From Cupriavidus sp. D39 (GTDB taxonomy: Bacteria > Pseudomonadota > Gammaproteobacteria > Burkholderiales > Burkholderiaceae): a stretch of 64,000 nucleotides of DNA. The stretch is taken from positions 1-64,000 of the forward strand of contig NZ_JAPNLE010000005.1 in assembly GCF_026627925.1 (NCBI RefSeq), written 5' to 3'. Positions 1,215 to 61,761 of this stretch are shown here, in pieces; within the stretch, counting starts at the first letter, position 1; each line of letters begins with the position of its first letter. Under the pieces are notes generated by a model. The model saw nothing but the letters and a program-made list of their open reading frames with translations. It ran no database searches and was not told the origin of the DNA. The translations under genes were made by a program, and so were the position numbers.

Positions 1215-1230
1215 TTTCCAACGTCAGAAA
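1215..1230 (+). promoter_or_regulatory. 16-bp near-palindrome, copy 1
   Basis: Exact TTTCCAACGTCAGAAA. It sits immediately upstream of the minus-strand traJ start. One of 13 copies in the window (see finding); inferred binding site of a plasmid-wide regulator or ParB-type protein. Confidence 0.75.
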
Positions 1231-1264
1231 TACGGGTCTCGGGGCGGAGCCCTGAGCAGGCCGC

Positions 1265-1420
1265 AGAAGGCCGAATCCGCGACGGGCGCCGCAGGCGACC
1301 CAGCGGATTCGGCCGGTGGGGTCACAACACTTGTGTTGTGGCCACATCTGCCATCCTGTCCTGTTGTTCTGGGGTTATTTTTCTATGTTTCCGTCTATGG
1401 ATTTATCCATAGACCTGACT
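1265..1420 (+). other. oriT: oriT, IncP-like, with nic motif
   Basis: The region between the diverging traJ and traK-like genes holds three inverted repeats: 12-bp arms at 1269-1280/1303-1314, the hairpin CACAACAC-TT-GTGTTGTG at 1323-1340, and GTCTATGGAT-TT-ATCCATAGAC at 1393-1414. Between the last two, CATCCTG|T at 1352-1359 matches the IncP nic consensus YATCCTG|Y; the predicted nick is between 1358 and 1359 on the plus strand. The orientation (nic reading away from traJ) and the hairpin just 5' of nic agree with RP4. If right, sequence to the right of 1359 enters the recipient first. Confidence 0.8.
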
Positions 1421-1568
1421 AGGGTTTCGGCGTGCCGATGCCCACAGAGTGTATGCCATCTGCTACTATAAAGAAATCACGAAAAGGCATAGTTTCCTGA
1501 CGCGTGCCGGGTGAATTCCCGGCTGTCCGCGTGCAACGACGCTCGCCACAGTCCAGACCGCAAAGCAG

Positions 1569-2108
1569 ATGACAAAGCTTGAAACTCATGAACTCGAAAG
1601 CGTAGAGCGGGCGCGGAAACTCCTGCTCGCGAAGTTCTTTGATAGCGCGGCTACGGACAAGCTGCGGAAGAAGGAAGCTGTTCGCCAACTGCTGGGAACG
1701 ATCATCGCTGTACGAGAAGCTGGGATGTCATTTGACGAGATCGCGACCATCTTCAGTGAAGCGGGGCTCGTTCTCAATGCCAACACGTTGCGCTTGTACT
1801 TCTATCAATTGAAGGCGCAGGCCGACATTGCCGCGCACGAAAAGGCCCACGCCGACCAGGTCGCGCGCACCCGATCTCAGCTGGAGAGCGACGACCGGCA
1901 GCGCTTTAGCCAGGATGCGCTGACCGAGGCGCAAGCCGTGGCGAAACGTAAGCGCTCCCCGCACTTCCCCGAACCGCCCCCAGAGGTGCCGCCGGCGGCG
2001 GCGCCTTTTGCAATGAAGCCGCAGAAGGCGGAAAAGCAAAAGCCCGCGCGACCCCTTATGGGGGTCGCGCCGCCACCCAACGCATGCGTTGGGGGCGGCG
2101 ATTTCTAG
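1569..2108 (+). CDS. TraK-like oriT-proximal protein, ends at an in-frame amber codon
   Basis: 179 aa. The core GMSFDEIATIFSEAGLVL resembles the helix-turn-helix of TraK-type proteins that bind oriT from the leader side, and its divergence from traJ across oriT supports this. The C-terminal third is a proline-rich linker encoded by two adjacent GC-rich hairpins (2046-2100). The frame stops at TAG 2106-2108, but the same frame is open for another 108 codons, so the gene may have been a 288-codon protein now cut by the amber codon. No clear Shine-Dalgarno was seen before the ATG. Confidence 0.6.
   Translation: MTKLETHELESVERARKLLLAKFFDSAATDKLRKKEAVRQLLGTIIAVREAGMSFDEIATIFSEAGLVLNANTLRLYFYQLKAQADIAAHEKAHADQVARTRSQLESDDRQRFSQDALTEAQAVAKRKRSPHFPEPPPEVPPAAAPFAMKPQKAEKQKPARPLMGVAPPPNACVGGGDF
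2046..2100 (+). repeat. Double GC-rich hairpin inside the traK-like gene
   Basis: Two adjacent inverted repeats: GCGCGACCCC/GGGGTCGCGC (2046-2055, 2061-2070, loop TTATG) and an imperfect 32-bp palindrome centred at 2084/2085 on CCAACGCATGCGTTGG. They encode low-complexity PPP/GGG stretches just before the amber codon and look like a small palindromic insertion. Confidence 0.6.
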
Positions 2109-2432
2109 GGCGGGGAGGGGTCCCTTGAGCCGCCGGCGGAGCCGAGTAAGCCCGTGCCCGCCGAAGCGCCTCCCGTTGCACCGAGAACAGAAGGCATCGG
2201 CCCGACGATCGAAGAGGCTCTGCAGGCCGGCGCAAGCATCCAAGGCGTGAGGCCAGATCTCCGCGAGAACGTTGTCCTTCACCAAGGGCGTCTGTACTAC
2301 GAGAGCGGAGAAGCGTTTGACGCGACGCTTTCCAAGGCTCAGGCGTACTTGATTCGCCAGACGGGCAAGATCATCGCGCCCACGGTCATGACGTCCACGA
2401 AGGACTTCGTGACGATGCCGACCAAACTCTGA
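2109..2432 (+). CDS. In-frame continuation of the traK-like gene (possible GTG restart at 2154)
   Basis: The 108 codons after the amber stop stay open in the same frame: a proline/alanine-rich start followed by an ordered-looking segment (GIGPTIEEALQAG, then LHQGRLYYESGEAFDA). A separate gene could start at GTG 2154, but no ribosome-binding site precedes it, so I favour readthrough, decay or a sequencing artefact of one longer gene. Function unknown. Confidence 0.45.
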   Translation, partial: GGEGSLEPPAEPSKPVPAEAPPVAPRTEGIGPTIEEALQAGASIQGVRPDLRENVVLHQGRLYYESGEAFDATLSKAQAYLIRQTGKIIAPTVMTSTKDFVTMPTKL

Positions 2433-2439
2433 AACGCTT

Positions 2440-2455
2440 TTTCCAACGTCAGAAA
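2440..2455 (+). promoter_or_regulatory. 16-bp near-palindrome, copy 2
   Basis: Exact TTTCCAACGTCAGAAA abutting the ATG of the SprT-like gene, where it would cover the ribosome-binding region. Confidence 0.75.
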
Positions 2456-3322
2456 ATGACCTTTGACAGTGAATTGGATTGTGCAATCCAAACCGGATTG
2501 ACGACCTCGAACGGCATCCTGACCGGCCAGATCCGCGTAGCGGCAACACCAGAGATGTACGGGCCGCTGGAAAAGCTGTACGACGTATTCAACGAAAAAC
2601 TCTTCGGCGGCGCCTTGCCGGGATGCCTTCTCACGCTGCAGCGCGAGCGCAGAAATTCTTACGGGTACTTTTCACGAAAGCGCTGGGTGAGCAGAGCAGG
2701 GACGTTCGCGGATGAGATCGCACTCAACCCAAACCACTTTGCCGTCACGCCGCTGCTCGAAGCACTGCAGACCCTGTGCCACGAAATGGTCCACCAGATG
2801 CAGAGTCTCTATGGCAAACCTGGCCGGCGCGGCTACCACAACAAAGAGTTTGCTCGAATGATGGCGGAGGTCGGCCTTCAGGCGTCCAACACCGGTAAGC
2901 CTGGTGGAAAGGAGACGGGCGAGTCGATGTCGGACTATCCCATTGCCGGCGGAAAGTTCCTGCAGGTAGTCGAGGATCTCTTAGCGTCGGGATTCACGAT
3001 CGCATGGATGGACCGCTTTCCTCCGGTCGCTATCGTTCAACTAGCCGCAGCGAACACTGCCGCGCCGGCGGATCTCGGCGACGCCGCATCAGAAGCACTG
3101 ACGTTGGCCAGCCTCCCGCTTTCAGCCGACACGCTTGCCAAACTCTCCGTCCAGGCTGACCCCAGTCAGCCTCCCAGCGCCCCAACCAGGACAAAGTACA
3201 CCTGCGCGTGCATGACGAACATATGGGGCAAGCGGGGGATTCTTGCAACGTGTGGCATCTGTGGCAGCCAGTTCCTTCCTGCGAAGCCAACAGTCGCCGA
3301 CAGCGAAGACGACAAGCCGTAG
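2456..3322 (+). CDS. SprT-like zinc metallopeptidase
   Basis: 288 aa. Residues about 35-140 form a SprT-like domain: the first helix LYDVFNEKLFGGALP, then the zinc-binding catalytic motif CHEMVHQMQ (HExxH) and a downstream YHNKEFARMM segment. The C-terminus carries a zinc-ribbon pair, CACMTN and CGICGSQF, as in SprT/Spartan relatives that act on DNA-protein complexes. The ATG follows a 16-bp operator-like site directly. It is the last gene before the accessory zone; genes of this family are common on conjugative elements. The biological substrate is not known. Confidence 0.85.
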   Translation: MTFDSELDCAIQTGLTTSNGILTGQIRVAATPEMYGPLEKLYDVFNEKLFGGALPGCLLTLQRERRNSYGYFSRKRWVSRAGTFADEIALNPNHFAVTPLLEALQTLCHEMVHQMQSLYGKPGRRGYHNKEFARMMAEVGLQASNTGKPGGKETGESMSDYPIAGGKFLQVVEDLLASGFTIAWMDRFPPVAIVQLAAANTAAPADLGDAASEALTLASLPLSADTLAKLSVQADPSQPPSAPTRTKYTCACMTNIWGKRGILATCGICGSQFLPAKPTVADSEDDKP

Positions 3323-3384
3323 GCCGCCGGCGGGCGGCGGGCGGCGGCGTGCGCGGGCGCTGAGTTAGTGAGACTACGCCTCTA
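3323..3384. other. GC-rich spacer, no gene
   Basis: A G/C-only run of GGC/GGCG triplets follows the SprT-like stop; nothing coding or palindromic enough to name is seen before the left repeat block of unit A. Confidence 0.5.
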
Positions 3385-3389
3385 GCTTA

Positions 3390-3490
3390 ATCAATGACTT
3401 ACTAACGAATTCGGTCACGTCGCAGACGACGCCCGAACAGAATTCGTTAGACTCGCCGGATCTGTGACGCGAATTAGTTGGACTGGCGGG
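3390..3490 (+). repeat. Left-end repeat block of unit A
   Basis: Contains ACTAACGAATTCGG (inverted copy), CAGAATTCGTTAGACT and GCGAATTAGTTGGACT (direct copies), about 32 bp apart, preceded by AATCAATGACTTA, which is also present in the left blocks of units B and C. Confidence 0.6.
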
Positions 3491-3527
3491 ATGTTCGGGT
3501 CGGTTGATAATGTAGCCTCCTGACTCC

Positions 3528-4865: not shown

Positions 4866-4959
4866 ACGCGGCGGCACATCACTGCGCACGGTTCTCGAAT
4901 GGACGCTACAGCTACGGTTCTGAAACGATAGTTTTTTTGCGAGCAAAATAGCGCGGTGT

Positions 4960-5673
4960 CTACCAAGTCAAGCGTTCGATCGGGAACACCATCGCGCGGT
5001 TGCCGTCCTGATAGAAACTTGCCTCGATCACGACCCGTTTCGCCTTCCTCGCCGATGTGATGAATTTGCTGGACGGCTTGATGAATAGTGCGGTTGAGCT
5101 GTAGTCAGATGGCTGATATGCCGAATAGCGCGCTGCGTGTCCGTCATCGAATCGAACCATTACGGAACAAGCCTCTACACCACAGACGAACTGCCCTTTG
5201 TCGATCGATAGAATGACATCCGTGCCGTATCTGGGATGCTTTCGAATCTGGAGGTTTGCTGTCGAGCCCCCGCTATACGGGAAGTTGAAGTCAAGCTTCC
5301 CCGACGCATCGACTGACGCGAAGTGGATCTGCTTGCTGGTAATCTGATCCGGTTGATCGAAGTACGTCCAGTCTGAGCGGGGCGGTTGGGGCGTCTCTAC
5401 GGGAGTATCGCTAGCCGCGGCCGCAGCGGCGGAATGAGTCGGGGGAGCAGCGCTGGGCGCTGCCGCGCTGGACGAGTTGCTGTTGCCGGCTTTTGACGAG
5501 GCGAAATTCCCGAGGACGATTGAGCACAAGAGAAAGACTCCGGCACTCGCTGAGCACACCTTTAACCGTGACGGCGCGGGTTTTCCCTTGCGACCAAAGG
5601 TCGACGGACTGATTAACCCAACGAAGAACGCAAAAAAGCTTCCCACCAGTAGAAACGCGACTATGAAATTCAT
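4960..5673 (-). CDS. Membrane-anchored protein of unknown function
   Basis: 237 aa. Two hydrophobic segments (about residues 3-25 and 40-58) are followed by a Ser/Ala/Pro-rich linker and a soluble C-terminal domain from about residue 95 with two cysteines (FVCGVEACSV) that could form a disulfide, suggesting exposure to the periplasm. It converges with the PD-(D/E)XK gene within unit A. I do not recognise the family. Confidence 0.7.
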   Translation of the reverse strand: MNFIVAFLLVGSFFAFFVGLISPSTFGRKGKPAPSRLKVCSASAGVFLLCSIVLGNFASSKAGNSNSSSAAAPSAAPPTHSAAAAAASDTPVETPQPPRSDWTYFDQPDQITSKQIHFASVDASGKLDFNFPYSGGSTANLQIRKHPRYGTDVILSIDKGQFVCGVEACSVMVRFDDGHAARYSAYQPSDYSSTALFIKPSSKFITSARKAKRVVIEASFYQDGNRAMVFPIERLTW

Positions 5674-5926: not shown

Positions 5927-5988
5927 GCAATCCAGCAAATTCCGGATTTCCGGTCCAGCAAAAGCGCACCTAGTCCAGCCAATTCCGG
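5927..5988 (-). repeat. Right-end repeat block of unit A
   Basis: Three copies of the repeat in inverted orientation: GCAATCCAGCAAATTCCGG, GGTCCAGCAAAAGCGCAC and AGTCCAGCCAATTCCGG. The same triple arrangement and spacing recur at 10988-11049 and 12623-12684. Confidence 0.75.
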
Positions 5989-6036
5989 TTACGCACACGG
6001 CGTTCGAGGCCAGCAGGCAAAATCAAGCCCGGGATA

Positions 6037-17480: not shown

Positions 17481-17680
17481 ATGAAGGTTGGCATTGTTTC
17501 GATCGAGGCGGCGATCAATAGGAGCCGCAACGCAGGGGTATTACCGGCGTCACGCTGTCTGCTGATGTACGCGCCCTTGCGGAGGTTTGGGGCATCATGA
17601 TCTATTACGGCATGACCGAGATTGACCTGGACAGCATTACCATTCACGCTCGCGAAGCGTTGGCACGTTGGACCGATTAA
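17481..17680 (+). pseudogene. DUF3717-like small protein, frameshifted
   Basis: The first frame (VSIEAAINRSRNAG) and the frame one base back (ITGVTLSADVRALAEVWG...) join into a 66-residue protein with the EAAIN...VRALAEVYG-type pattern of DUF3717 proteins from Burkholderiales. One extra G in the GGGG run at 17535-17538 would restore it. GGAGAG precedes the ATG. Confidence 0.65.
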
Positions 17681-17726
17681 AGTCGGCAAAAAGTCATTTT
17701 TTAATTCAGTAAAGGAAGTTTCATAC

Positions 17727-18488
17727 ATGGCTAAAGAAACCAAGAAAAGCACCGGCTGCCCGGTATTCATCTGCCACGGCGACAAGGGCGGCGTGGGCAA
17801 GTCGATGGAATGCGCGGTGATCTGCGATTGGCTGGACAAGTCTGGAATTGAATTCGCGCTGGTCGACGGCGACACGAGAAATCCGGACGTTGCCCGCATG
17901 TTCAAATCGGTTGCCCCGGTCGCTCAACTGAACCTGCGCACGCATGACGGCTGGATGGATCTCACGGACTTCATGTCCGAACATAGCCATCGCGTGATCG
18001 TCATCTCGATGCCAGCTGGCATCGGTGAAGAGCTTAGCAAGGAGGGCGCCTCCTTCGTGAACACGATCCGCCTGCTGGAACGACCGATGCACCTGTTCTG
18101 GGTCATCAACCGCTTGCCGGACAGCGTGAACCTGCTCTCCGAGGCAGAGAAGACCCTCGGCGGCGATCTCGCAGGCAGGTATGTCGTGAAGAACCTCTAC
18201 TTCGGTCCCGCCGAGAAGTTCACGCGTTGGGATACCAGCACGACTCGTTCGAACTTCGAGCAGGCCGGCGGCGTCACACTGAAGCTGCCGGAGCTCCACG
18301 AGCGCACCGTGGACAAGCTGTACGCCGACAACGACGCGATCATGCCCTTTTCTCGGGCGGTGCAGCCCGTAGGACAGCACAAGGAAAGCGTCCACGGCTT
18401 TACCGCCAGCGAGAACATGGAACTGGTGCACTGGGTCACCACTAACCACAACACGCTCGAGTCCATTCGTCATCGTCTGGGCCTGTAA
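17727..18488 (+). CDS. ParA/MinD-like ATPase, TraL/StbB type
   Basis: 253 aa. Deviant Walker A DKGGVGKSM at about residue 20 and ALVDGDTRNPDVARMF following; the rest resembles the TraL/StbB branch of ParA ATPases coded near plasmid oriT regions. RP4 has one such protein (TraL) in its leader operon. AAAGGAAG precedes the ATG. A second, related ATPase is coded 600 bp downstream with the same VVDGDERTPDVARAF signature. Exact role (plasmid positioning or transfer) is inferred. Confidence 0.75.
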   Translation: MAKETKKSTGCPVFICHGDKGGVGKSMECAVICDWLDKSGIEFALVDGDTRNPDVARMFKSVAPVAQLNLRTHDGWMDLTDFMSEHSHRVIVISMPAGIGEELSKEGASFVNTIRLLERPMHLFWVINRLPDSVNLLSEAEKTLGGDLAGRYVVKNLYFGPAEKFTRWDTSTTRSNFEQAGGVTLKLPELHERTVDKLYADNDAIMPFSRAVQPVGQHKESVHGFTASENMELVHWVTTNHNTLESIRHRLGL

Positions 18489-18490: not shown

Positions 18491-18506
18491 TTTCTGACGT
18501 TGGAAA
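18491..18506 (-). promoter_or_regulatory. 16-bp near-palindrome, copy 3
   Basis: Exact TTTCTGACGTTGGAAA, starting 2 bp after the ATPase stop and running into the AAGGAGG ribosome-binding site of the next gene. Confidence 0.75.
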
Positions 18507-18518: not shown

Positions 18519-19094
18519 ATGGCCAAGTTCAATTTCCGCCGGGGTGAGGCCGTCATCCACTATTCATTGGTGGGCCCGCACCGGGGATATTGGGGCCGCA
18601 AGGTCGGAGCGTTCCGAGTGCTCGCGACCAGCCCCTCGAGCCTGGATTCAGGTGCCTGCATCTCTGAGAGCGATCTAGGGCACACGATCTTCCCAGCCCC
18701 TAACGAGCATGGCGTCTACGATGAGCGCCATGCCAAGCAGTTTGCCTATCGCAGCACCAGTGGTAGAGATCACGCTGTCGCATACGTTCTGCATATCGGG
18801 CCGGATCGCTGGGCCTACTCGTTTAGCCTCACCATCGCTACCGGCGGATACTGCGGCTTCTCGAGTGGCATCTCTGACGATCACAGCGAGAGCACCGAAG
18901 AGTCGGCTACCCGTCTTGCCCTCACTCAGTTGATCGGCATGCTCCGCGACACGCTTGACAACGCCAGCGTCACAAATCCGGAGAGACGACGCAAAGCAGT
19001 CCGTGCTGCAATCATCGCCCTTCTTTCCCAGCTTTCGTTAGTCGATAGGACTGCTATACTTAAAGCAGTTAAAGAAATGTCAAAAGGCGGATGA
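18519..19094 (+). CDS. Hypothetical protein between two ParA-like genes
   Basis: 191 aa. AAGGAGG gives a strong start. The N-terminal two thirds looks like a beta-rich soluble domain (YVLHIGPDRWAYSFSL, GGYCGFSSG), the C-terminal third is helical. It overlaps the next gene's start by 4 bp. Its fixed position between two ATPases suggests a shared complex, but no family is recognised. Confidence 0.75.
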   Translation: MAKFNFRRGEAVIHYSLVGPHRGYWGRKVGAFRVLATSPSSLDSGACISESDLGHTIFPAPNEHGVYDERHAKQFAYRSTSGRDHAVAYVLHIGPDRWAYSFSLTIATGGYCGFSSGISDDHSESTEESATRLALTQLIGMLRDTLDNASVTNPERRRKAVRAAIIALLSQLSLVDRTAILKAVKEMSKGG

Positions 19095-21363: not shown

Positions 21364-21379
21364 TTTCCAACGTCAGAAA
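21364..21379 (+). promoter_or_regulatory. 16-bp near-palindrome, copy 4
   Basis: Exact TTTCCAACGTCAGAAA ending 3 bp before ATG 21383. Confidence 0.75.
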
Positions 21380-24836: not shown

Positions 24837-24847
24837 ATTCGGTCCGG

Positions 24848-24867
24848 TTTTTCCAACGTTGGAAAAA
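24848..24867. promoter_or_regulatory. 16-bp motif, copy 5, fully palindromic
   Basis: TTTTTCCAACGTTGGAAAAA, a perfect 20-bp palindrome. It shows that the motif is built from two half-sites (TTTCCAACGT and TTTCTGACGT) and here has two of the first type. Lies between the replication-like gene and the pil operon. Confidence 0.8.
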
Positions 24868-24914
24868 ATGCCGGACCGCCAACGGCGCGTAAGCCTGCGA
24901 ACATCGTTGCGCGG

Positions 24915-31618: not shown

Positions 31619-32164
31619 ATGTCCAAATTTTTCCAACGTCAGAAATCCTTCTCGGCTCGCACGCAGCGGGGCTTCCTCTCGGTGGAAGCCATCATCGTGC
31701 TTGTCATCGTTATCGGCCTGATTGCTCTCGGCGCATCCAAGAGCGAAATGCTCTCTGGTAACTCCGAAGCAACGGAGGAGATCAGCAACATTCAAGCGCT
31801 AGTTACGAGTACCAGGGCGCTCAAGTCGAACGCCGGCTACGGGGCCTCGGGCACCGATCTGGCAGCCACGCTGATTGCTATCGGCGGTGTACCGACGAAC
31901 GTCGCTATAGTGGGTGGCGTGCTGCAGAACCCTGTTGGCGGCACTTATGTCGTGACGAGCACCGGCGCCGGCTTCACGATCGCTACCAGCAACCTGAAGC
32001 CCACGCTTTGTGTGAAGGTGGTCCCGAAACTGACGCGTAGCGGCACGTTCTCGAACACCAAGGTTGGCAGCGGCGCTGCAACGACCGGCGAAATCGCGGC
32101 GCCAGCAGCGACGACTGCCTGTGGCGCGGCCATGTCGACCGTGACCTACACGGTTGCATCGTAG
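31619..32164 (+). CDS. pilS: Major type IVb prepilin PilS
   Basis: 181 aa. Leader ending RTQRG, mature start FLSVE with the conserved Glu5, and hydrophobic helix AIIVLVIVIGLIALGAS. The mature domain ends with a pair of cysteines (LCVKVV, TACGAAM) forming the usual D-region disulfide. No prepilin peptidase is coded in the window, so processing needs an enzyme from elsewhere. The leader's codons 4-9 are the 16-bp operator-like motif. Confidence 0.9.
   Translation: MSKFFQRQKSFSARTQRGFLSVEAIIVLVIVIGLIALGASKSEMLSGNSEATEEISNIQALVTSTRALKSNAGYGASGTDLAATLIAIGGVPTNVAIVGGVLQNPVGGTYVVTSTGAGFTIATSNLKPTLCVKVVPKLTRSGTFSNTKVGSGAATTGEIAAPAATTACGAAMSTVTYTVAS
31630..31645 (+). promoter_or_regulatory. 16-bp near-palindrome, copy 6 (inside pilS leader)
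   Basis: Exact TTTCCAACGTCAGAAA within codons 4-9 of pilS, encoding FFQRQK, 11 bp downstream of the ATG. Confidence 0.75.
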
Positions 32165-36071: not shown

Positions 36072-36087
36072 CTTCTGACGTTGGAAA
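36072..36087 (-). promoter_or_regulatory. 16-bp near-palindrome, copy 7 (one mismatch)
   Basis: CTTCTGACGTTGGAAA, in the shared upstream region of pilL (minus) and trbB (plus), where one bound protein could affect both operons. Confidence 0.65.
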
Positions 36088-37900: not shown

Positions 37901-40504
37901 ATGACTGGATTCCTTTTCTTCATCTTCATCCTCATCATCGAAGCGGGGCTTCTCCTCTTCGCATTCCTGCGCCATCGGCCAGGAATGCAGGAGGAGTTTC
38001 GCGACTCCGAAGCCGGTTTGGCAGATCTTCTTCGCCATGCCGAACCCATAGCTGACGGTGTTCTATCGGGGAAGGGCGGCGAGATCATAGGCGGTTTTTT
38101 CTATCGAGGGACCGATACCGAATCGTCCACGAACCACGAACTCGACATGATCTCGGCCCGCGTCAACAACGCGCTTGCGCGACTTGGCTCGGGCTGGATG
38201 GCGCATATCGACGCGATGCGGTCTGAAGCGATCGGCTACCCGGACCGGACTCCATTCGTGCATCCTGTGGCCGAGCTCGTGGATGAGGAGCGGCGCCTGC
38301 AGTACAGCGGCGAAGGCCTCCACCATGAGAGCCGCTACGCCATCATCCTCACCTATCTGCCCCCACTCGCCGCGGAGAGCAAGGCTCAGTCGATGATGTT
38401 CGAGCACAGCGAGGACCTGCGGGGCATTAAGACGGCAACGCGGGAGAGGCTTGTCGCGCAGTTCAATACGATTCTCGATTCCCTCGAGGGCGAACTCGGG
38501 CTGGTCTTCAATGCCATTACCCGAATGCGTTGCCACGAGCGGATCAATGCGGCAGATGGCCGGAAGTATCATGTCGATGATCTGCTCGGATACGTGCACT
38601 ACTGCGTCACAGGCATTGCCCAGTACATGGCATTGCCGAAGGCTGGAGTGACTATCGACACGATCGTTGGCAGCCAGGACTTTGTCGCAGGGAACACGCC
38701 CAAGGTAGGCGCGAATCATATCCGCGTCCTTTCCATCGAAGGGTTCCCTTCGCACGGCTACTCGGGCATCTTGGATTCCCTGAATTCGCTGCCGGTCACC
38801 TATAGGTGGAGCACGCGGTTCATCTTTATGGACCCCGAGGAGGGCAGGAATCTTCTGGAGAAGATGTTCAAGAAGTGGCGGCAGAAAATTCGCGGACTGC
38901 GCGATACGGTGTCTAACAACTCAGCGGGAGCGGTTGACCAGGACGCCCTGGAAATGATGATCGATGCCCAAACTGCCATGGGAGAGGCGGCTGCGGGCAG
39001 AGTTCGATTTGGTCACTACACCAGCGTGATTGTGCTTATGAATCAAGATCTGCCGGCCCTCCTGGAGGCGGTAGAGATGTGCGCGAAGGCGATCCGTACC
39101 CTCTCTTTCGCCGTTCGCGTGGAGACAATCAATGCGGTAGAAGCATTCTTGGGGAGCATTCCGGGCCATGGATATGAGAACGTGCGCCGGCCAATCCTTC
39201 ACACGATGAACCTTGCGCATTTGATCCCGACGACGGCCACTTGGCCAGGTCTGAGTACCAACCCCAACCCCTTCTATCCGCCGAACAGTCCGCCGTTGAT
39301 GTACGCGGATACAACAGGCGGAACGCCCTTCAGGGTGGGGACGCACGTTGGCGATGTCGGGCACTTTCTAATGCTCGGCCCGACGGGCGCAGGTAAGTCG
39401 ACGCTGCTTGAACTGATGGGCCTTCAGCACATGCGCTACCGCAGGGCAAGGACGATCAAGTTCGAGAAGGGCTATTCGTCCTATGTCGCATGCGCATCGG
39501 TCAACGGCGCTTACTACGATCTGGCGGGGGAGCATCCGAGTATCGTGGGAGGCAAGGAGTATCGAGACGCGCTATGCCCCCTGCGCCATGTCGATCAGCC
39601 TTCCTGGCGGCTCTGGGCGCTGGACTGGATCGAGACGTGCCTGGCGCTTTCCAAGGTCGAGGTAACGTCGCGCCGGCGCAATCTTATCGCCAATGCGCTG
39701 GTTTCGATTGGAAACGCAGACCCTGACCAGCGGACGATGACCCATTTCGTGTCCCAGTTGCAGGACAGCGATTTGCAGGAAGCGCTGAAACCGTACACGC
39801 TGGCCGGCAACAACCAGATGCTGGACGGCGAAGACGACACGCTGCAGGGCGCGCACTTCATCGTGTTCGAGATGGAACACCTGATGGGAAAGGGCGCGCA
39901 AATCGCTGTGCCGGTGCTCCTGTACCTCTTCCGCAAGGTCGAGACGATGTTGGATGGCTCGCCCACGCTGCTCATTCTTGACGAAGCGTGGCTCATGCTT
40001 GAGCATCCGATCTTCAGTGCGAAAATCAAAGAGTGGCTCAAAGTCATGCGCAAACGGAATTGTTCGGTCGGCTTTGCCACCCAGTCGATTTCTGACGTTG
40101 GAAAAAGCGCGATCCGTGACGTTCTCTACGAAAGCTGCCCTACGAAGATCTTCCTGTCGAATCCCGAAGCGCAACGCAACGTGAGCGTGCGGGAGGAGTA
40201 TGAGCGCATCGGCCTCAACGACCAGCAGATCGAGCTCATTGCCCAAGGCGTGAAGAAGCAGGATTACTTCTACATGTCCCCGTTGGGGCGGCGCCGGTTC
40301 CGCCTTGGGCTTGGCCCGGTGACTCTGGCCTTCGTGGGCGTCAGCGGCACCGAGGATATTGATCACGCGCGGCGCATCCTTGCCTCGGGTACGCGGAACT
40401 TCGGCGCTGAGTGGCTGCGCCACTGCTCCACGGCAAAGGTAGAGTGGGGCGATGGTCTTGCGGAATGGGCTTCGCTGCTGGAGAACCGTCAAGCTGCGGC
40501 TTAA
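37901..40504 (+). CDS. trbE: T4SS ATPase TrbE (VirB4 family)
   Basis: 867 aa. One N-terminal membrane segment (FLFFIFILIIEAGLLLFAF), Walker A GPTGAGKSTL at about residue 495, Walker B LLILDEAWLMLE, and the CagE/TrbE-VirB domain between. Energises channel and pilus assembly at the inner membrane. An exact copy of the 16-bp motif lies in the coding sequence and encodes ISDVGK in a conserved region. ATG 37901 follows trbD by 5 bp. Confidence 0.93.
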   Translation: MTGFLFFIFILIIEAGLLLFAFLRHRPGMQEEFRDSEAGLADLLRHAEPIADGVLSGKGGEIIGGFFYRGTDTESSTNHELDMISARVNNALARLGSGWMAHIDAMRSEAIGYPDRTPFVHPVAELVDEERRLQYSGEGLHHESRYAIILTYLPPLAAESKAQSMMFEHSEDLRGIKTATRERLVAQFNTILDSLEGELGLVFNAITRMRCHERINAADGRKYHVDDLLGYVHYCVTGIAQYMALPKAGVTIDTIVGSQDFVAGNTPKVGANHIRVLSIEGFPSHGYSGILDSLNSLPVTYRWSTRFIFMDPEEGRNLLEKMFKKWRQKIRGLRDTVSNNSAGAVDQDALEMMIDAQTAMGEAAAGRVRFGHYTSVIVLMNQDLPALLEAVEMCAKAIRTLSFAVRVETINAVEAFLGSIPGHGYENVRRPILHTMNLAHLIPTTATWPGLSTNPNPFYPPNSPPLMYADTTGGTPFRVGTHVGDVGHFLMLGPTGAGKSTLLELMGLQHMRYRRARTIKFEKGYSSYVACASVNGAYYDLAGEHPSIVGGKEYRDALCPLRHVDQPSWRLWALDWIETCLALSKVEVTSRRRNLIANALVSIGNADPDQRTMTHFVSQLQDSDLQEALKPYTLAGNNQMLDGEDDTLQGAHFIVFEMEHLMGKGAQIAVPVLLYLFRKVETMLDGSPTLLILDEAWLMLEHPIFSAKIKEWLKVMRKRNCSVGFATQSISDVGKSAIRDVLYESCPTKIFLSNPEAQRNVSVREEYERIGLNDQQIELIAQGVKKQDYFYMSPLGRRRFRLGLGPVTLAFVGVSGTEDIDHARRILASGTRNFGAEWLRHCSTAKVEWGDGLAEWASLLENRQAAA
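40089..40104 (-). promoter_or_regulatory. 16-bp near-palindrome, copy 8 (inside trbE)
   Basis: Exact TTTCTGACGTTGGAAA within trbE, about 400 bp before its stop. Confidence 0.7.
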
Positions 40505-45128: not shown

Positions 45129-46016
45129 ATGATCGTGAAAAAGCAGATTCTCGTAGCGCTGGCTGTCGCTTTGTTGTCGTCGGTGGCCGGCGCCGGCACC
45201 AGCAAGAAATTTCTGACGTTGGAAGACGCTGCACTGGCGCAAGCTAAGAAATGGCAGCAGACGGGGGTTGCAAAGCCCATCATGTCGGACGATGGGAAAG
45301 TGCTCTATCCATTCGGCCAGTACATGCCGACGATCACGTGTGCGCCCATGCGTGCGTGCGACGTCGAGCTCGAGCCGGGTGAGAATGTGAGCGGCAAGCC
45401 AATGCTCGGCGACTCCGCCAGGTGGCTACTCTCCAAGGCCCAATCTGGATCAGGTGAGAAGCGCGTGACTCATATCGTTGTGAAGCCGACGGACACAGGT
45501 TTGGAAACGAACATGATCGTCACTACCGATCGGCGCACGTACCACATGCGTCTTTACTCAAGCGCAAACGACCGGGATTATATGAACCGGGCGGGCTTCT
45601 ACTATCCGCAGGACATCGTTGACGAGTGGAACGATGCTGAGCAAACCGCGCAGAAGCGAGCCAGGGAAGAAGGCACCCGCGTCGTCGCGGATCTTCCCCC
45701 TACGTCAGTCGAAAAGCTCGATTTCGGCTACAGCGTCGACGGTGACAAAACGCTCTTCAATCCTACGCGAGTCTTCAACGATGGGACGCGGACCTATATT
45801 CAAATGCCCGAGCAAATGAAGTCGGCGGAGGCGCCGGTGCTTCTGCTGCTCGATCGCGAGGACAAGCCGCAGATTGTCAACTACCGTGTCAAGGACGCCT
45901 ATTACATCGTGGACAAGCTGTTCGACCGCGCCATGCTGGTCGTCGGTGTCGACTCGAACCAGAGCAAAGTGACGATCACATGGAACAAGGCCCCGAAACG
46001 CGGCCTGTTCTGGTAA
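45129..46016 (+). CDS. trbG: TrbG (VirB9 family)
   Basis: 295 aa. Signal peptide (ILVALAVALLSSVAGAG), then the VirB9/TrbG beta-rich domain: VLYPFGQYMPTITCAP, CDVELEPGENV, HIVVKPTDTGLETN and the C-terminal DAYYIVDKLFDRAMLVVG. Core-complex component at the outer membrane. Codons 27-32 contain the 16-bp motif with one mismatch. Confidence 0.92.
   Translation: MIVKKQILVALAVALLSSVAGAGTSKKFLTLEDAALAQAKKWQQTGVAKPIMSDDGKVLYPFGQYMPTITCAPMRACDVELEPGENVSGKPMLGDSARWLLSKAQSGSGEKRVTHIVVKPTDTGLETNMIVTTDRRTYHMRLYSSANDRDYMNRAGFYYPQDIVDEWNDAEQTAQKRAREEGTRVVADLPPTSVEKLDFGYSVDGDKTLFNPTRVFNDGTRTYIQMPEQMKSAEAPVLLLLDREDKPQIVNYRVKDAYYIVDKLFDRAMLVVGVDSNQSKVTITWNKAPKRGLFW
45210..45225 (-). promoter_or_regulatory. 16-bp near-palindrome, copy 9 (inside trbG, one mismatch)
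   Basis: TTTCTGACGTTGGAAG, encoding FLTLED near the start of the mature TrbG. Confidence 0.6.
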
Positions 46017-47578: not shown

Positions 47579-48123
47579 ATGAAAGCTGATAAAAATAGCC
47601 GCGCGCGGTCTGCTACGAAGACCGCAACACGACGTGACGTTTCAAGCGCTCGCACACCACGAAAGGCCATCTCAGCGCCGGCGCCTGCGAGCGTTCCTGA
47701 ACCGGCAAATATCGTGCGGCCCAAGCGGCTTGGGCGTCCGCGAACGCGCCTCGAGGAGCCGAAGGTCGTGCCTACCCGATGTCCGGAGAACATGTACACA
47801 TACTTGAAGATGATCGCCCCCTTGAGTGGCGCTCGTTGACCGGAATGTTTCAAGACATGATGACCCGATTCCTGGCTACGGAACCATGGAAACACGGCCT
47901 CCTTTGGCGCAAGCCGCGCACGGCGCTGACGTTTCAGGATGGAGTCGCGGGCCGCACAGGTTGGGAGCAGGTGAACATTCAGCTTCCGCCGGACCTAGCT
48001 GAGCAAGTGGAGCATGCATCAAGGGGCGTGGGCGTATCGAAGGCCGCATTTTGCTACACGGCTATGTTCTGGTGGATTCAGTACATTTATCCGCCAAAAG
48101 CCGTCAAGCGTCTGTCGCAGTAA
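47579..48123 (+). CDS. RHH-type DNA-binding protein, one frameshift as given
   Basis: The first frame (basic N-terminus with GRPRTRLEEP and PTRCPENMYTYLKMIAPL) breaks in the CCCCC run at 47817-47821; one extra C continues as EWRSLTGMFQDMMTRFLATEP to the stop at 48123, giving about 181 residues. The C-terminal VNIQLPPDLAEQVEHASRGV, then GVSKAAFCYTAM reads as a ribbon-helix-helix. Placed between the trb and par operons, it is a candidate regulator of transfer. Confidence 0.65.
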
Positions 48124-48158: not shown

Positions 48159-48174
48159 TTTCCAACGTAAGAAA
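48159..48174 (+). promoter_or_regulatory. 16-bp near-palindrome, copy 10 (one mismatch)
   Basis: TTTCCAACGTAAGAAA, upstream of the par operon. Confidence 0.65.
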
Positions 48175-48288: not shown

Positions 48289-48477
48289 GTGACTGAAGAG
48301 AAGAAGCCCACGCTGGTTCGATTGCCCGTCGAGTTCCGCAAGGAACTATTGGACGAGAGTGCGGCGCAGACCCGTGAACGCGGGCAAACCGTGTCGATTC
48401 CCCAATTGGTTGTTGAACTGGCCAAAGAAGCTTGGGAGGCGCGGCGAGCCCGGAAACCAGGACAGGACAATGGCTAA
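48289..48477 (+). CDS. Small RHH-like protein, first gene of the par operon
   Basis: 62 aa from GTG 48289 (CAGGAG 7 bp upstream; the overlapping ATG at 48287 is followed at once by TGA). TLVRLPVEFRKELLDESAA followed by QTVSIPQLVVELAKEAWE looks like a ribbon-helix-helix. It overlaps parA by 8 bp, so it may be the operon's autorepressor. Confidence 0.7.
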   Translation: MTEEKKPTLVRLPVEFRKELLDESAAQTRERGQTVSIPQLVVELAKEAWEARRARKPGQDNG

Positions 48478-49210
48478 ATTGATCACCGTCATCAACAACA
48501 AGGGCGGAGTCGGGAAAACGACCATCGCATGCCATCTCGCTTTCGCCTCGGGGGAAGCAGGCAAGAGGACCCTGTTGTGTGACTTCGATACGCAAGGGAA
48601 CGCTGGTCAGTTTCTGACCAAAGACCTGCAGATCACGAAGCGTCGCGGCGGCTCGGAACAGCTTTTTGAGCAGGCGGAGCTACAATACACCCCCGCTTGG
48701 GTGGACAACATTCAACTGTTGCATGGGCATGGATACCTGCAAGAGTTGGATTCGCGCGGTGACGAGCTCAGCGAACTGGCGATCCGGAAGCGTGGTGAGA
48801 TCCGCAAGCTTCCGTTCGACTACGTGATTTTCGACACGCCGCCGGCGCTCGGTCCGCGGCAGACCGCTCCGTTGTTCTGGTCGGACCTGGCCGTCGTGAT
48901 TGTTGAGCCTCAGCTTACCTCGTTGACTGGGATGGCCGATGTCTTCAAGAACATCCAGGACGCGCGGAAGCGCAATCCGAGCCTGCAGGTGCAGGTGGTA
49001 ATCAACCGATACACCAAGGCGTCGTCGTCGCAAAAGAAGGTGCGTGCGGAGCTCGAGCAAAAGTTCGGCAAGATGATTGTGGGCGAGTTCACGACGCGCG
49101 TCGCGGTGTCCGATGCGCTGGCCAACTACCAGCCGGTGTGGCGGTTCGCGAAGGACAAGAAATTGAACGCCGCCTGGAAAGATTTTTCCGGGCGTGTGTT
49201 GGGACTTTAA
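48470..49210 (+). CDS. parA: Partition ATPase ParA (IncC-like)
   Basis: 246 aa. Deviant Walker A NKGGVGKTTI at residues 9-18, CDFDTQGN, and YVIFDTPPALG as Walker B region. Ib-like size without an N-terminal DNA-binding domain. With the ParB beside it, it positions and segregates the plasmid. Confidence 0.92.
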   Translation: MAKLITVINNKGGVGKTTIACHLAFASGEAGKRTLLCDFDTQGNAGQFLTKDLQITKRRGGSEQLFEQAELQYTPAWVDNIQLLHGHGYLQELDSRGDELSELAIRKRGEIRKLPFDYVIFDTPPALGPRQTAPLFWSDLAVVIVEPQLTSLTGMADVFKNIQDARKRNPSLQVQVVINRYTKASSSQKKVRAELEQKFGKMIVGEFTTRVAVSDALANYQPVWRFAKDKKLNAAWKDFSGRVLGL

Positions 49211-49222: not shown

Positions 49223-50290
49223 ATGGGCACTCTCGACTTCCTCGACAGCTTGGAAGCACCTGCCGCAACGGCCATCAGTATCCCTCTTCGGGATGTGATG
49301 CCCGACCCGAAGCAGCCGCGCACGAGATACCGCGAAATCGATGGCAATGTGTCGGTGGAAGGTCGGGACCACATCAAGAACCTGGCCAAGAGCATTGCTG
49401 ATCAAGGCCTTCTGCAGCCGATTACCGTGCGCGAGGTGGACGGCGGCTACATGATCGTCATGGGCGAATGCCGGTGGCGCGCGTTTGTGCTCAATCAGGA
49501 AGAGGGCGTTCCCGGACATGAGGCTATTCCGGCCTTTGTACGGAACGACATGTCGCCGGCAAAGTTGCGCCTGGCGCAGTTGGCCGAGAACCTGAATCGC
49601 GATGACCTTACCGATCTGGAGGTCGCGCATTTCGTCAAGGAAACGCTGGAAGAGAACCCTGAGCTCAAGAAGTCCGAGCTCGGGGCGATCATGCGGCAGA
49701 ACAGTCAATACATCTCCCGTATCCTCGCTTTGTTGAATCCGAAGTGGTCCGACGTAGTCGATTCGGGGATGATCTCCTTCGCATCGCTGCTTGAACAATA
49801 CCGCGCGCTGCCGGAGAACGTCCGGGCAGAAGTGAAGACGAAGGTTCAGGCCGAGGGGCGCAGCAAGATTACCTCAACCGATCTGAAGAAGGCTCGCGAC
49901 GGGATGAAAACGCCGGGGCGGGTCTCGGTTGACCCCGAGTTGGCGCGCTCGGTCGATCAGATGCTCGAGGCCAATACGCCGAAGGGCGAACACTATCATC
50001 CGCCCAAAACCCAATTCACTGATGTCGGCATAACGGCCCCGATCATTCCGAGCGGCGTCGAGAATGTGAACGCCAGTCTGATCGACAAGCGCACGCTGCG
50101 TATCACGGCGCGCCAACTGAAGATGCTCATTGAGAAGAGCGCCATCACTGGCAAGGAGAAGGGCTTGATGGTGGAGCTGATTCTGCCGGTCGAGGATTTG
50201 AAGCGGATGCACAAGAAGATCGGCGGAAAATTGCCTGAAACCGATTCGCTTCTGCAGGCCGCCTTCATGGATCAACTCAACTCGATCTGA
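49223..50290 (+). CDS. parB: ParB / KorB-like partition and regulatory protein
   Basis: 355 aa. ParB N-terminal CTPase motifs (GLLQPITVREVDG, GECRWRAF, QLAENLNRDDLTDLE), a helix-turn-helix (KKSELGAIMRQNSQYISRIL) and a C-terminal dimerisation part. The KorB of IncP plasmids is both ParB and global repressor with 12 scattered operators; this protein is the best candidate to bind the 13 scattered 16-bp palindromes in the window, which is inference. Confidence 0.9.
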   Translation: MGTLDFLDSLEAPAATAISIPLRDVMPDPKQPRTRYREIDGNVSVEGRDHIKNLAKSIADQGLLQPITVREVDGGYMIVMGECRWRAFVLNQEEGVPGHEAIPAFVRNDMSPAKLRLAQLAENLNRDDLTDLEVAHFVKETLEENPELKKSELGAIMRQNSQYISRILALLNPKWSDVVDSGMISFASLLEQYRALPENVRAEVKTKVQAEGRSKITSTDLKKARDGMKTPGRVSVDPELARSVDQMLEANTPKGEHYHPPKTQFTDVGITAPIIPSGVENVNASLIDKRTLRITARQLKMLIEKSAITGKEKGLMVELILPVEDLKRMHKKIGGKLPETDSLLQAAFMDQLNSI

Positions 50291-51903: not shown

Positions 51904-51919
51904 TTTCTGACGTTGGAAT
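51904..51919 (-). promoter_or_regulatory. 16-bp near-palindrome, copy 11 (one mismatch)
   Basis: TTTCTGACGTTGGAAT, between the ATPase gene and the following small gene. Confidence 0.65.
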
Positions 51920-52034: not shown

Positions 52035-52322
52035 ATGAAGAACACAAACAATGTCGCGCTGATCAACCCGGAGTCGGAGCATTTTGTGCCGACCTTGACT
52101 GACGTGGTCTCGCCCGCGACGCTTGCTCAAGTGTTCGGGGACCATCCGGTCCCCTTCAAGACGAATGCGGACGGGTCTGTTCCTACCTCCGTCTATCTGC
52201 AACACCTGGAAGACACGTGGGCGCTGGCCATGCAGGAAGCGGAAACGGACGAGATCCACGCGGAACGCGCGCCTGCGCGTGACCTGCGTGAAGTTTCCAT
52301 CGAAGCCCGTGCCATCCTGTAG
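52035..52322 (+). CDS. Small acidic protein, unknown
   Basis: 95 aa. AAGGAAGGGG lies about 9 bp before ATG 52035, preferred over ATG 51969 and 51984. The core SPATLAQVFGDHPVPF followed by TSVYLQHLEDTWALAMQEA is well-formed. Precedes the TrfB-like repressor gene by 36 bp. Function unknown. Confidence 0.65.
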   Translation: MKNTNNVALINPESEHFVPTLTDVVSPATLAQVFGDHPVPFKTNADGSVPTSVYLQHLEDTWALAMQEAETDEIHAERAPARDLREVSIEARAIL

Positions 52323-52358
52323 ACTTCGGGCGGTTTCCACCAGCTAGCATCGCGACAA

Positions 52359-52874
52359 ATGAACGAGCGGGAGTTCGACAACCTGGTCAACACGACACGC
52401 CTGACGCCGAAGAGCCGCGAAGCGGCGCGTTTGGTGTATGTGGACGGGAAGTCACCGAGCGAGGCGGGAATAGCAGTGGGTCTTTCGCCACAGCGGATTT
52501 CGCAGATCCTTGCTGCTGTCAAGAAGGCTGAATCCGAACGACCGTTGTCCGTTGCTCCCAACACGCCCGTTACTCCGGTTGACGCCGTAAGGGCTAGCTA
52601 CGCCTTTGCTGTCAAAGCTGCGCGTGATCTGTTCGGAGATGAGGCAACAATCAGGACGCCTGGCCCCGACGAGAGACTTGTTGGGAGGGTGGAAGCCCGC
52701 ACCGATTTCCATCTGGTGCAGCATCTGGGGCGAAACGCCGTAGCAATCCACGATCTCGCGAGCCTGGACAGAGTGCCTCCTCTGGCCAGGTCCGTTGCGA
52801 TCCAGTATCGCGCAGGAGCGGCTCAGGTCATCGACCGCGACCAAGTGCAAACGCGAGAATCTAACGTTCGTTGA
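52359..52874 (+). CDS. TrfB/KorA-like repressor with KfrB-like C-terminus
   Basis: 171 aa. RLTPKSREAARLVYVDGKSP followed by GIAVGLSPQRISQIL is the TrfB-family helix-turn-helix of IncP KorA and TrbA. Residues about 108-165 (GRVEARTDFHLVQHLGRNAV, then AIQYRAGAAQVID) form a KfrB-like domain, which recurs at the C-termini of three more proteins in this window. A global repressor working with KorB-like ParB is inferred. Confidence 0.82.
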   Translation: MNEREFDNLVNTTRLTPKSREAARLVYVDGKSPSEAGIAVGLSPQRISQILAAVKKAESERPLSVAPNTPVTPVDAVRASYAFAVKAARDLFGDEATIRTPGPDERLVGRVEARTDFHLVQHLGRNAVAIHDLASLDRVPPLARSVAIQYRAGAAQVIDRDQVQTRESNVR

Positions 52875-55381: not shown

Positions 55382-55385
55382 GGCC

Positions 55386-56269: not shown

Positions 56270-56285
56270 TTTCCAACGTCAGAAA
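56270..56285 (+). promoter_or_regulatory. 16-bp near-palindrome, copy 12
   Basis: Exact TTTCCAACGTCAGAAA, 10 bp before ATG 56296 and overlapping its ribosome-binding region. Confidence 0.75.
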
Positions 56286-57900: not shown

Positions 57901-57928
57901 TAAGATATCGTGATATAAAAATATCTTA
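57901..57928. promoter_or_regulatory. GATATT-type operator repeat, copy 4
   Basis: TAAGATAT (57901) and ATATCTTA (57921), with GATAT-AAAA-ATATC nested inside, directly before traG. Confidence 0.55.
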
Positions 57929-57938
57929 GAAAATTAAT

Positions 57939-60458: not shown

Positions 60459-61069
60459 AGGGCTCAGCAACCGTGATGGTTCGAGCGCTTCCCTTGGTCG
60501 ATAGCGTGTGGATGAGCGCCGGCGCGGCAGCGCACCTATATCGTCTTCTCGCGCGCTACAACTGGTGTCTGATCGAACCCGAGCGCTATAGGGCACGCTG
60601 GCAACTGTTCTGGCCAACACTGAGGTGGTGCGAACGCGCCATGCTACGGCTCTGCCTGGCGGCGCATGGCGGCAGGCGAGTGGGGCAGCGCTTGACGACG
60701 GCATCGCCGCAGGGATATCGCGACGTGCTCCTGGCGCACAGGCCCGTGCGCATTGCGGCCAATGTCGAAGAGGAGTTCTGGACGGTACTCGCGAGTTTCT
60801 ACGCTGCTCTGACCACGGCTGACGAGGTGGCTCAGATGTGGGCGAAGCACTGCGCGGCATCCTTCGAGGTCCTCGCCTCGGACAGGCCGTACACCCAATG
60901 GTTTGCCGACGGCCATGGGTTCGTTCCTTGGGCAGTCTTTGAGAACGCACGACGCTACTATGGCGGAATGGGGTGGAATGCGCCCGACGCGCAGCACGCC
61001 GCTGCAGACCTGTCGGCTGCCCTGCACAAACATCTTTATTTAAAGGAGCAAGAGCTATGCGCTTCCTAG
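60455..61069 (+). CDS. Hypothetical protein downstream of traG
   Basis: 204 aa from GTG 60455 overlapping the traG stop. Helical, Trp- and Arg-rich (RYRARWQLFWPTLRWCERAM). Overlaps the next gene by 13 bp. No family recognised. Confidence 0.7.
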   Translation: MKGSATVMVRALPLVDSVWMSAGAAAHLYRLLARYNWCLIEPERYRARWQLFWPTLRWCERAMLRLCLAAHGGRRVGQRLTTASPQGYRDVLLAHRPVRIAANVEEEFWTVLASFYAALTTADEVAQMWAKHCAASFEVLASDRPYTQWFADGHGFVPWAVFENARRYYGGMGWNAPDAQHAAADLSAALHKHLYLKEQELCAS

Positions 61070-61683
61070 TAGGTGCGTTGACGCTGTTCATCGCCACTCT
61101 GTGCCACGGCGAAGATCTGCAGAGTCTAATGGCGCGATGTGTACCCGAGGTCCATCCGACAACGATGGCGGCCATCGTGCGGGTGGAAACGGGGGGCAAT
61201 ATGTTCGCGATCTCAGACGATGGCCCCGCCGGGTTGCCATGGAGTGAGCGAAAGAAACTAATCCGCAGTTTCAGACCTTCGACCCTAGAGGAAGCGGTGC
61301 AAATCTCGCGCGACCTGGCTGAGAAAGGGCACTGGTTCGGCATAGGCCTGACCCAGCTTAGCAATCGGCACCTGTCGAAGCTCGGTCTTAGCGTGGAACA
61401 GGCATTGGACCTCTGCACGAACCTCAAGAGCGGTGGCAAGGTCCTCCTGGAGTTCTTTGCAGCGGCGAAGAAGAAATACGCCAACGAGAACGATGCATTG
61501 CAAGCGGCCATCAGCGCGTACAACACCGGTAACTTTGAATCCGGGTTCGCCAACGGCTATGTGCAGAAGGTGGTGAGTGCCGCCCGTCTCACTGTCCCCG
61601 CGCTAAGGACGGGAGGCACCGTATCGGCTGTCCGGGTGCGAGCGGCTGGAGTGTCGGCCGGCGCGAGGGGGGATGACGGCTAG
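61057..61683 (+). CDS. Lytic transglycosylase (VirB1/PilT type)
   Basis: 208 aa. Signal peptide (LVGALTLFIATLCHG), then an SLT domain with the catalytic Glu in AIVRVETGGN, the GLTQLSNRHL motif and AISAYNTGNFESGF. Opens peptidoglycan for the mating channel or pilus. AAGGAG 9 bp before the ATG. Confidence 0.9.
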   Translation: MRFLVGALTLFIATLCHGEDLQSLMARCVPEVHPTTMAAIVRVETGGNMFAISDDGPAGLPWSERKKLIRSFRPSTLEEAVQISRDLAEKGHWFGIGLTQLSNRHLSKLGLSVEQALDLCTNLKSGGKVLLEFFAAAKKKYANENDALQAAISAYNTGNFESGFANGYVQKVVSAARLTVPALRTGGTVSAVRVRAAGVSAGARGDDG

Positions 61684-61745
61684 ACCCAGCACGCTCCTCG
61701 AGGCGCGCTTTGCAAAGCTCGAGGCAGAGACGTTTTGATCCCGAA

Positions 61746-61761
61746 TTTCCAACGTCAGAAA
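61746..61761 (+). promoter_or_regulatory. 16-bp near-palindrome, copy 13
   Basis: Exact TTTCCAACGTCAGAAA, upstream of the AT-rich promoter region of the methylase gene. Confidence 0.75.

Follow-up and report, generated by a model that had tools for sequence, protein, structure and literature searches.

Scattered sites read by a ParB-family protein have been described on several plasmids. In RK2 (IncP-1), KorB that has loaded at its operators (OB) closes on cytidine triphosphate (CTP) and slides to promoters as distant as 1.5 kb, and KorA locks it (PMC11790492); the cited account of the RK2 korA promoter places OB upstream of the -35 element and the KorA operator (OA) over the -10 element (PMC2680271). 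An IncC plasmid is reported to carry 14 dispersed parS inverted repeats on its backbone, one at the par promoter and four inside open reading frames (ORFs), and ParB bound in electrophoretic mobility shift assays for the probes tested (PMC10954446). Here we describe a 16-bp near-palindrome, TTTCCAACGTCAGAAA, that is scattered over a plasmid contig (C5; 104,190 bp) of Cupriavidus sp. D39, whose genome comprises 7.74 Mb in 11 contigs; the window that we analyzed is positions 1-64000 of C5. We consider it likely that this 16-mer is the operator and centromere (OB/parS-like) of the KorB-like ParB encoded at 49223 of the plasmid, to which we infer that it is bound.

The Cupriavidus plasmid resembles RK2 in combining a ParB-family protein with scattered palindromic operators and a co-encoded KorA-type protein, in having an operator upstream of the -35 element of the predicted promoter before its korA-like gene, and in that KorB is the best structural match to its ParB (PMC2680271, PMC11790492). 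It differs from RK2 in that its operator has the 16-bp form TTTCC-AACGT..GAAA rather than TTTAGC(C/G)GCTAAA, its KorA-like protein carries a KfrB domain, and its backbone includes type IVb pilus genes. A preliminary description of the window had likened the sites to KorB operators; the likeness holds for a set scattered over a plasmid backbone and not for the sequence, as the RK2 OB has no copy on the Cupriavidus plasmid at up to one mismatch. The IncC system is similar in its scattered sites, one upstream of the par operon and some within genes, and differs in plasmid type and in its repeat, described as a 14-bp core in a 22-bp repeat (PMC10954446). The KorB of the IncU plasmid RA3 is likewise a ParB that serves in partition and also regulates backbone promoters, together with KorA, although the cited passage gives RA3 only three OB sites besides parS (PMC7414963). 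The IncP-9 plasmid NAH7 is reported to have several parS near type IV secretion system (T4SS) genes, and its partition genes include one for ParR, a protein with a KorA domain (PMC12421886).

Scattered ParB sites are already known (RK2 OB, IncC parS and RA3 KorB), and the Cupriavidus plasmid adds a distinct operator to them. What is new, we think, is that operators differ within one plasmid family and that one operator apparently fixes part of the trbE protein sequence. Literature searches by plasmid name returned nothing on the regulation of these plasmids as judged from titles and the opening parts of abstracts, and by the same measure none of the matches listed for the motif string concerns them.

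A dispersed motif confined to the plasmid

All 13 sites of the preliminary description were found where it had placed them, and its tally of nine exact sites and one mismatch in each of the others also stands. On one strand or the other, TTTCCAACGTCAGAAA is exact at eight of the 13 window sites, the site at 24850 is the perfect palindrome TTTCCAACGTTGGAAA, and those at 36072, 45210, 48159 and 51904 have one mismatch. The window scan gave 14 hits for the 13 sites because the palindrome scores on both strands; the chance level at up to three mismatches is 0.29 matches (maximum 4; 100 dinucleotide shuffles). Seven sites (1215, 2440, 18491, 21364, 31630, 36072 and 56270) lie within 15 bp of start codons as had been proposed, counting the pilS site 11 bp past its ATG and taking start codons from our ORFs and the annotation of the related plasmid pRK1-3. 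The assignment of three sites to the interior of pilS, trbE and trbG was likewise upheld.

The enrichment extends to the remainder of the plasmid, where it had been expected if the motif marks the backbone. The whole of C5 has 18 sites at up to two mismatches, compared with a mean and a maximum of 0 in 60 synthetic sequences that preserve trinucleotide composition. The five sites beyond the window are exact at 87704, 89045, 91225 and 100890 and have two mismatches at 98198. A genome-wide scan with the degenerate form TTTCHRACGTYDGAAA at up to one mismatch gave 17 sites exclusively on C5 and 0 on the other ten contigs.

Regular spacing, which had been read from the window, is lost over the whole plasmid: the gaps have a coefficient of variation (CV) of 1.01, an evenness like that of random placement (P = 0.71), and a second site-free stretch, 26 kb long (61.7-87.7 kb), lies largely beyond the window. 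Tested in seven plasmids (see below), regularity found support only in pACP4.3 (CV 0.59, P = 0.009). Close pairs of sites are rarer than chance on C5 (minimum gap 1225, P = 0.016).

Most sites are near-palindromes, and the asymmetric form has one half TTTC-CA-AC and the opposite half TTTC-TG-AC. Among 76 sites from four plasmids, 56 are CA/TG, seven CA/CA, four TG/TG and nine other, a tally that may be somewhat biased by the scan templates.

A KorB-like ParB and its association with the sites

The product of the gene at 49223 belongs to the ParB/RepB/Spo0J family (TIGR00180, 83.9 bits with a cut-off of 58.45; Pfam ParB_N, 53.9 bits with a cut-off of 26.3), and parA lies directly upstream. An AlphaFold2 model built from 47 sequences (mean predicted local distance difference test 79.6, predicted template modeling score 0.51) has a predicted recognition helix at residues 161-171. 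When this model was compared with 350,542 Protein Data Bank (PDB) chains using Foldseek, the top two matches were RK2 KorB chains in the KorB-KorA co-complex (template modeling score 0.73-0.76 on the target), and the model thus points to a KorB-like fold. Searched by itself against PDB chains, the helix-turn-helix (HTH) matched KorB chains weakly (E 0.39 and 0.72), and the HTH of the pACP4.3 ParB gave no match.

Among named plasmids, the closest one found is pRK1-3 of Cupriavidus basilensis (NZ_CP062807.1), which matches 74% of a 7.9-kb query at 93% DNA identity; it encodes a ParB 97.7% identical to that of the D39 plasmid and has 13 sites at up to two mismatches. More distant are pl3WSM5005, pBVB_1 and a B. 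multivorans plasmid, whose ParBs are about 45% identical; at up to two mismatches to three half-site combinations these plasmids have 18, 20 and 18 sites, respectively, compared with at most one in 60 synthetic sequences for each. In a de novo k-mer count, the site word ranks first among 12-mers in all five of these plasmids, the D39 plasmid included.

Presence of the sites follows presence of this ParB. The exact 14-mer TTCCAACGTCAGAA occurs in 23 of 398 genomes of the bacterial family, with at least three copies in six (G000, G069, G126, G167, G177 and G311) and one or two in 17. At E <= 1e-30, and with no more than five candidates scored in each genome, ParBs of this family are encoded in eight of the 398, namely those six plus G008 and G029. 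All six genomes with at least three copies thus encode the ParB, compared with 0 of the 17 that have one or two. Probably G126 and G311 represent the same plasmids as pBVB_1 and pRK1-3, as their coordinates coincide. Across the order (399 genomes), six genomes outside the family have one copy each, besides G000. This co-occurrence counts for ParB as the likely reader of the sites. More distant ParB loci (the best 80 of at least 521 relatives on genome contigs and the best 80 of 297 on viral contigs) are at most 42% identical over parts of the protein and were not used.

In the two remaining genomes, G008 and G029, the 14-mer has no exact copy but variants of the site are present. The 107-kb sequence of G029 has four sites at up to two mismatches (synthetic mean 0.18, maximum 2), with ACAT replacing ACGT in three of the four, and 10 at up to three mismatches (synthetic mean 2.3, maximum 8). 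The 13.8-kb sequence of G008 has one site at up to two mismatches and five at up to three (synthetic means 0 and 0.35). The G029 genome measures 1.7 Mb, and its contig (C86) keeps parB and the sites, mostly with the ACAT core; parA was not found beside parB, and the contig looks like a decaying plasmid or an integrated copy.

Selection on the DNA of the site within trbE

The site within trbE is TTTCTGACGTTGGAAA in the D39 plasmid, pRK1-3, pl3WSM5005, pBVB_1, the B. multivorans plasmid, G069 and G177, and except in pRK1-3 the TrbE proteins of these relatives are 56-58% identical to that of D39. When the near-identical pRK1-3 is omitted, the sole invariant run of at least 10 bases in trbE of the six remaining plasmids is 19 bases long and begins exactly at the site. 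These trbE genes have 386 codons invariant for the amino acid (Met and Trp excluded), 30 of which are invariant as codons; all five such codons within the site are among the 30. The trbE site is under selection as DNA and is a conserved DNA element. The preliminary description had deduced selection on the DNA from the different peptides that the three intragenic sites encode; the selection is borne out by the comparison with relatives, and the differing peptides are not a proof by themselves. The operator also appears to constrain the protein, as pMsip01 and pACP4.3, in which trbE lacks the site, have EDIVN and QDVAN where the others have SDVGK.

The trbG site is kept in pRK1-3, pl3WSM5005, the B. 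multivorans plasmid and G177; the pBVB_1 copy has one extra mismatch, that of G167 is weakened, and G069 has lost the site. The TrbG of G008 shows a Leu-to-Pro difference, and its gene still has a valid, palindromic site with a changed half.

Relatives with other motifs

Two relatives have a similar backbone and a different scattered palindrome. In pMsip01, whose ParB is 35-38% identical to that of the D39 plasmid, the D39-type motif is absent and TTTCCTATATAGGAAA has 12 copies at up to two mismatches (synthetic mean 0.03). In pACP4.3, TTTTGC(A/T)GCAAAA has 15 copies at up to one mismatch, including 14 exact ones, compared with a synthetic mean of 0.23. At those limits neither motif occurs on the D39 plasmid, and neither relative has the D39 motif. 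Like the RK2 OB, TTTAGC(C/G)GCTAAA, the pACP4.3 motif is built of 13 bp, and it differs from OB by one symmetric change and the center (PMC2680271). Alone among the ParBs scanned, that of pACP4.3 reaches the Pfam KorB domain (29.4 bits, cut-off 22.3); the pYSCONJ ParB has a weak match below the cut-off.

It is conceivable that the site is a motif for recombination, methylation or a host factor and no regulator's operator, in keeping with the methylase-like protein encoded on the plasmid (61945) and with the location of several sites between modules. The replacement of the motif by other abundant palindromes in pMsip01 and pACP4.3 argues against this idea, as do its absence from the other ten D39 contigs, the conservation of the site within trbE and the occurrence of a site before the par operon in every one of the seven plasmids compared, and we regard it as very improbable.

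At position 162 of ParB, the second of the predicted recognition helix, Gln occurs in 43 of 47 homologues, in all seven ParBs aligned for the AACGT class and in those of G008 and G029; pMsip01 has Ser and pACP4.3 has Gly. When Q162, which distinguishes the motif classes, was mapped by eye onto Caulobacter ParB with provisional numbering, it fell outside the four specificity residues named in the cited text (PMC7383237).

There is, in our judgment, about an even chance that a single plasmid family has kept its ParB operator network through at least two plasmid-wide rewritings of the operator, giving three scattered sets (TTTCC-AACGT-[CA|TG]-GAAA, TTTCCTATATAGGAAA and TTTTGCWGCAAAA), with the change tracking the ParB recognition helix and with intragenic operators dictating protein sequence (SDVGK in trbE, Leu-to-Pro in trbG of G008). 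If true, these plasmids would form a natural series showing how a global DNA-binding network alters its specificity. The relatives supply a number of natural pairs of ParB and operator that differ in specificity, which makes it testable how operators change in ParB/KorB networks without loss of partition or silencing, together with a case of an operator inside a secretion gene that apparently constrains the protein, and the sites provide a candidate centromere and regulon for an apparently undescribed plasmid family of the Burkholderiaceae.

Shared places, promoter geometry and competing readers

Sites occupy orthologous places among plasmids that share the motif. Counting the reciprocal-best-hit orthologues in which both members of the pair have an upstream site, we found that the numbers shared with D39 exceeded chance for pl3WSM5005 (3 of 39 orthologues, P = 0.049), for pBVB_1 (6 of 40, P = 0.014) and for the B. 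multivorans plasmid (5 of 40, P = 0.016). A general sharing of positions with the changed-motif plasmids was not significant, the places upstream of par and between trbB and tcpQ alone being common. All seven plasmids (D39, pRK1-3, pl3WSM5005, pBVB_1, B. multivorans, pMsip01 and pACP4.3) have a site, of whichever motif, 85-115 bp before the opening gene of the par operon; for pMsip01 we called the ORF of this gene ourselves, and its site carries two mismatches. At the place corresponding to 36072, pBVB_1 and the B. multivorans plasmid also have a site, and pMsip01 and pACP4.3 have copies of their own motifs. The KorA-like operon has an upstream site in five of the seven. In D39 this operon is preceded by a promoter-like match to consensus, TTTACA-16-TATCAT, and the site ends 38 bp before it. 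A site upstream of the -35 element here takes the place that OB takes in RK2, which counts for ParB as the reader.

The KorA-like protein itself, which the preliminary description had not mentioned, may instead read the site as a global repressor at promoters. It matches Pfam KORA above the cut-off (27.8 bits against 26.7) and has a KfrB domain, its recognition helix varies by motif class (QRxxQ vs SQ/PQxSR), and its own operon often has a site upstream, as noted above. However, no site precedes its gene in pMsip01 or pACP4.3, and the sites lie upstream of -35 or deep in genes and not over -10. The RK2 OA is absent from the D39 plasmid, and a search of the whole G029 genome (E <= 0.001) found matches only to the KfrB side of the KorA-like protein and no KorA HTH, while ParB and four sites remain there. 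We judge this alternative unlikely, and favor ParB over the KorA-like protein because of the upstream counts, the position of the site with respect to the promoter, the deep intragenic sites, the OB-like motif of pACP4.3 and G029. No convincing second operator of KorA type was found among the intergenic words of the D39 plasmid, the sole abundant palindrome being the G+C-rich CGCCGGCG (9 copies vs 1.2 expected). The palindrome GACTATAGTC recurs near some pBVB_1 sites (57710, 74437 and 88029) and, as a weak lead, is possibly the operator of the KorA-like protein in Burkholderia plasmids. An alignment of the KorA-like protein to the 399 genomes of the order gave, besides G000, five weak partial matches only (E 5.8e-8 to 9.5e-7) and was not used.

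A second group of candidate readers comprises the ribbon-helix-helix-like proteins encoded at 47779 and 48289. Genes of the 47779 type are present in all seven plasmids and in four further contigs searched, and their putative ribbon residues, judged by eye, vary by motif class. An upstream site, however, precedes this gene in only three of the seven plasmids (pBVB_1 counted by an extended start), and neither protein has a Pfam match that would support the fold. The 62-residue type encoded at 48289 is unannotated in pACP4.3 and replaced by an HTH-like protein in pMsip01. Isolated 16-bp palindromes also fit ParB/KorB better than a ribbon-helix-helix reader, and we hold such a reader to be quite improbable, more so than the KorA-like protein. 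The small HTH-like replacement in pMsip01 (52229-52483) resembles the N-terminus of the KorA-like protein by eye and has a weak PapB match.

A proposed operator network

The likeliest interpretation is an operator network of the KorB/IncC-parS type that serves partition and control of the backbone. ParB dimers would dock on the 18 sites, bind CTP, close and probably slide along the DNA in the manner of RK2 KorB, and copies spread over the backbone would let clamps be loaded close to many operons. The site upstream of par may act as both centromere and autoregulatory site, and the other sites may hold back or otherwise tune the transfer, pilus, maintenance and par genes, perhaps with the KorA-like/KfrB protein acting jointly with ParB. 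NAH7 ParB is reported to activate T4SS genes and not to repress them (PMC12421886), so the effect of ParB here may be of either sign.

Several observations weigh against ParB as the reader or against its likeness to KorB. Unlike RK2 KorB, ParB 49223 has no match to the Pfam KorB domain (PF08535) even at E = 5; the preliminary description had called it KorB-like, which holds for its ParB family membership and best structural match and fails for this domain. Other ParB and Noc chains follow closely behind KorB in the structural search with similar E-values, KorB being only slightly ahead. In the conserved GERRWRA box (residues 81-87, window 49463-49483), the D39 ParB and four others of 47 have GECRWRA and two have GESRWRA; replacement of the first GERR arginine by Cys may alter CTP handling, and normal handling is not certain. 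The asymmetry of the sites (56 of 76) is odd for a symmetric dimer. Upstream sites shared with the changed-motif plasmids were not significant (pMsip01, 1 of 31, P = 0.61; pACP4.3, 3 of 33, P = 0.11). Covariation of the recognition helix was rejected as proof of the reader, since the KorA-like helix and the 47779 ribbon (by eye) change with the motif as much as the ParB helix does and so do not single out ParB. Finally, G029 argues only moderately for ParB over the KorA-like protein because it looks decayed, with no parA beside parB.

Features of the locus

The coordinates of the window sites and of the candidate regulators are given in Table 1. The trbE homologue in pRK1-3 is annotated merely as a transporter.

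Table 1. Sites of the 16-mer and genes for candidate readers in the window
Feature	Position	Strand	Remarks
Site TTTCCAACGTCAGAAA	1215..1230	+	5 bp upstream of the start (1209, per pRK1-3) of a minus-strand NikA-like mobilization gene
Site	2440..2455	+	Abuts ATG (2456) of SprT-like gene
Site	18491..18506	-	In 30-bp gap between ORFs 17622-18488 and 18519-19094; gap also occupied in pl3WSM5005, pBVB_1 and the B. multivorans plasmid
Site	21364..21379	+	3 bp before ORF 21383; equivalent place occupied in pl3WSM5005, pBVB_1 and the B. multivorans plasmid
Palindromic site TTTCCAACGTTGGAAA	24850..24865	.	Upstream of tcpQ/pilN operon
Site	31630..31645	+	Within pilS, codons 4-9
Site, 1 mismatch	36072..36087	-	Between divergent tcpQ-like and trbB-like genes
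Site	40089..40104	-	Within trbE; invariant in six diverged plasmids
Site, 1 mismatch	45210..45225	-	Within trbG
Ribbon-helix-helix-like protein (by eye)	47779..48123	+	Rival reader; homologues in the six relatives compared
Site, 1 mismatch	48159..48174	+	Upstream of par operon; candidate parS/operator
62-residue protein, ribbon-helix-helix-like by eye	48289..48477	+	First par-operon gene; coordinates via pRK1-3 homologue and sequence
parA, ParA-family ATPase	48470..49210	+	
parB, 355 residues	49223..50290	+	Likely reader of the sites
Site, 1 mismatch	51904..51919	-	38 bp upstream of -35 of promoter-like match before KorA-like operon
KorA-like (TrfB-related) protein, C-terminal KfrB domain	52359..52874	+	Possible co-repressor
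Site	56270..56285	+	10 bp before ORF 56296 (homologues annotated DUF5710)
Site	61746..61761	+	Between lytic-transglycosylase-like gene and methylase-like gene 61945

pYSCONJ and a Diaphorobacter plasmid were considered as members of the plasmid family that lack KorA and were dropped as evidence both ways, and they were left out of the counts over seven plasmids. Their palindromes TTTCCGCGCGCGGAAA (four copies) and GTTTCTCGCGAGAAAC (five copies) are few and lie mainly near the relaxase region. A word that is not palindromic, TGTCACCA, occurs 25 times in pYSCONJ and 18 times in the Diaphorobacter plasmid, dispersed over both, and many copies form inverted pairs with starts 33-34 bp apart.

On the D39 plasmid, the palindromic sites at 24840-24875 and at C5 91215-91250 have nearly identical flanks of about 10 bp on each side (CGGTCCGG...TGCCGGA), and it is possible that the two represent a copied unit.

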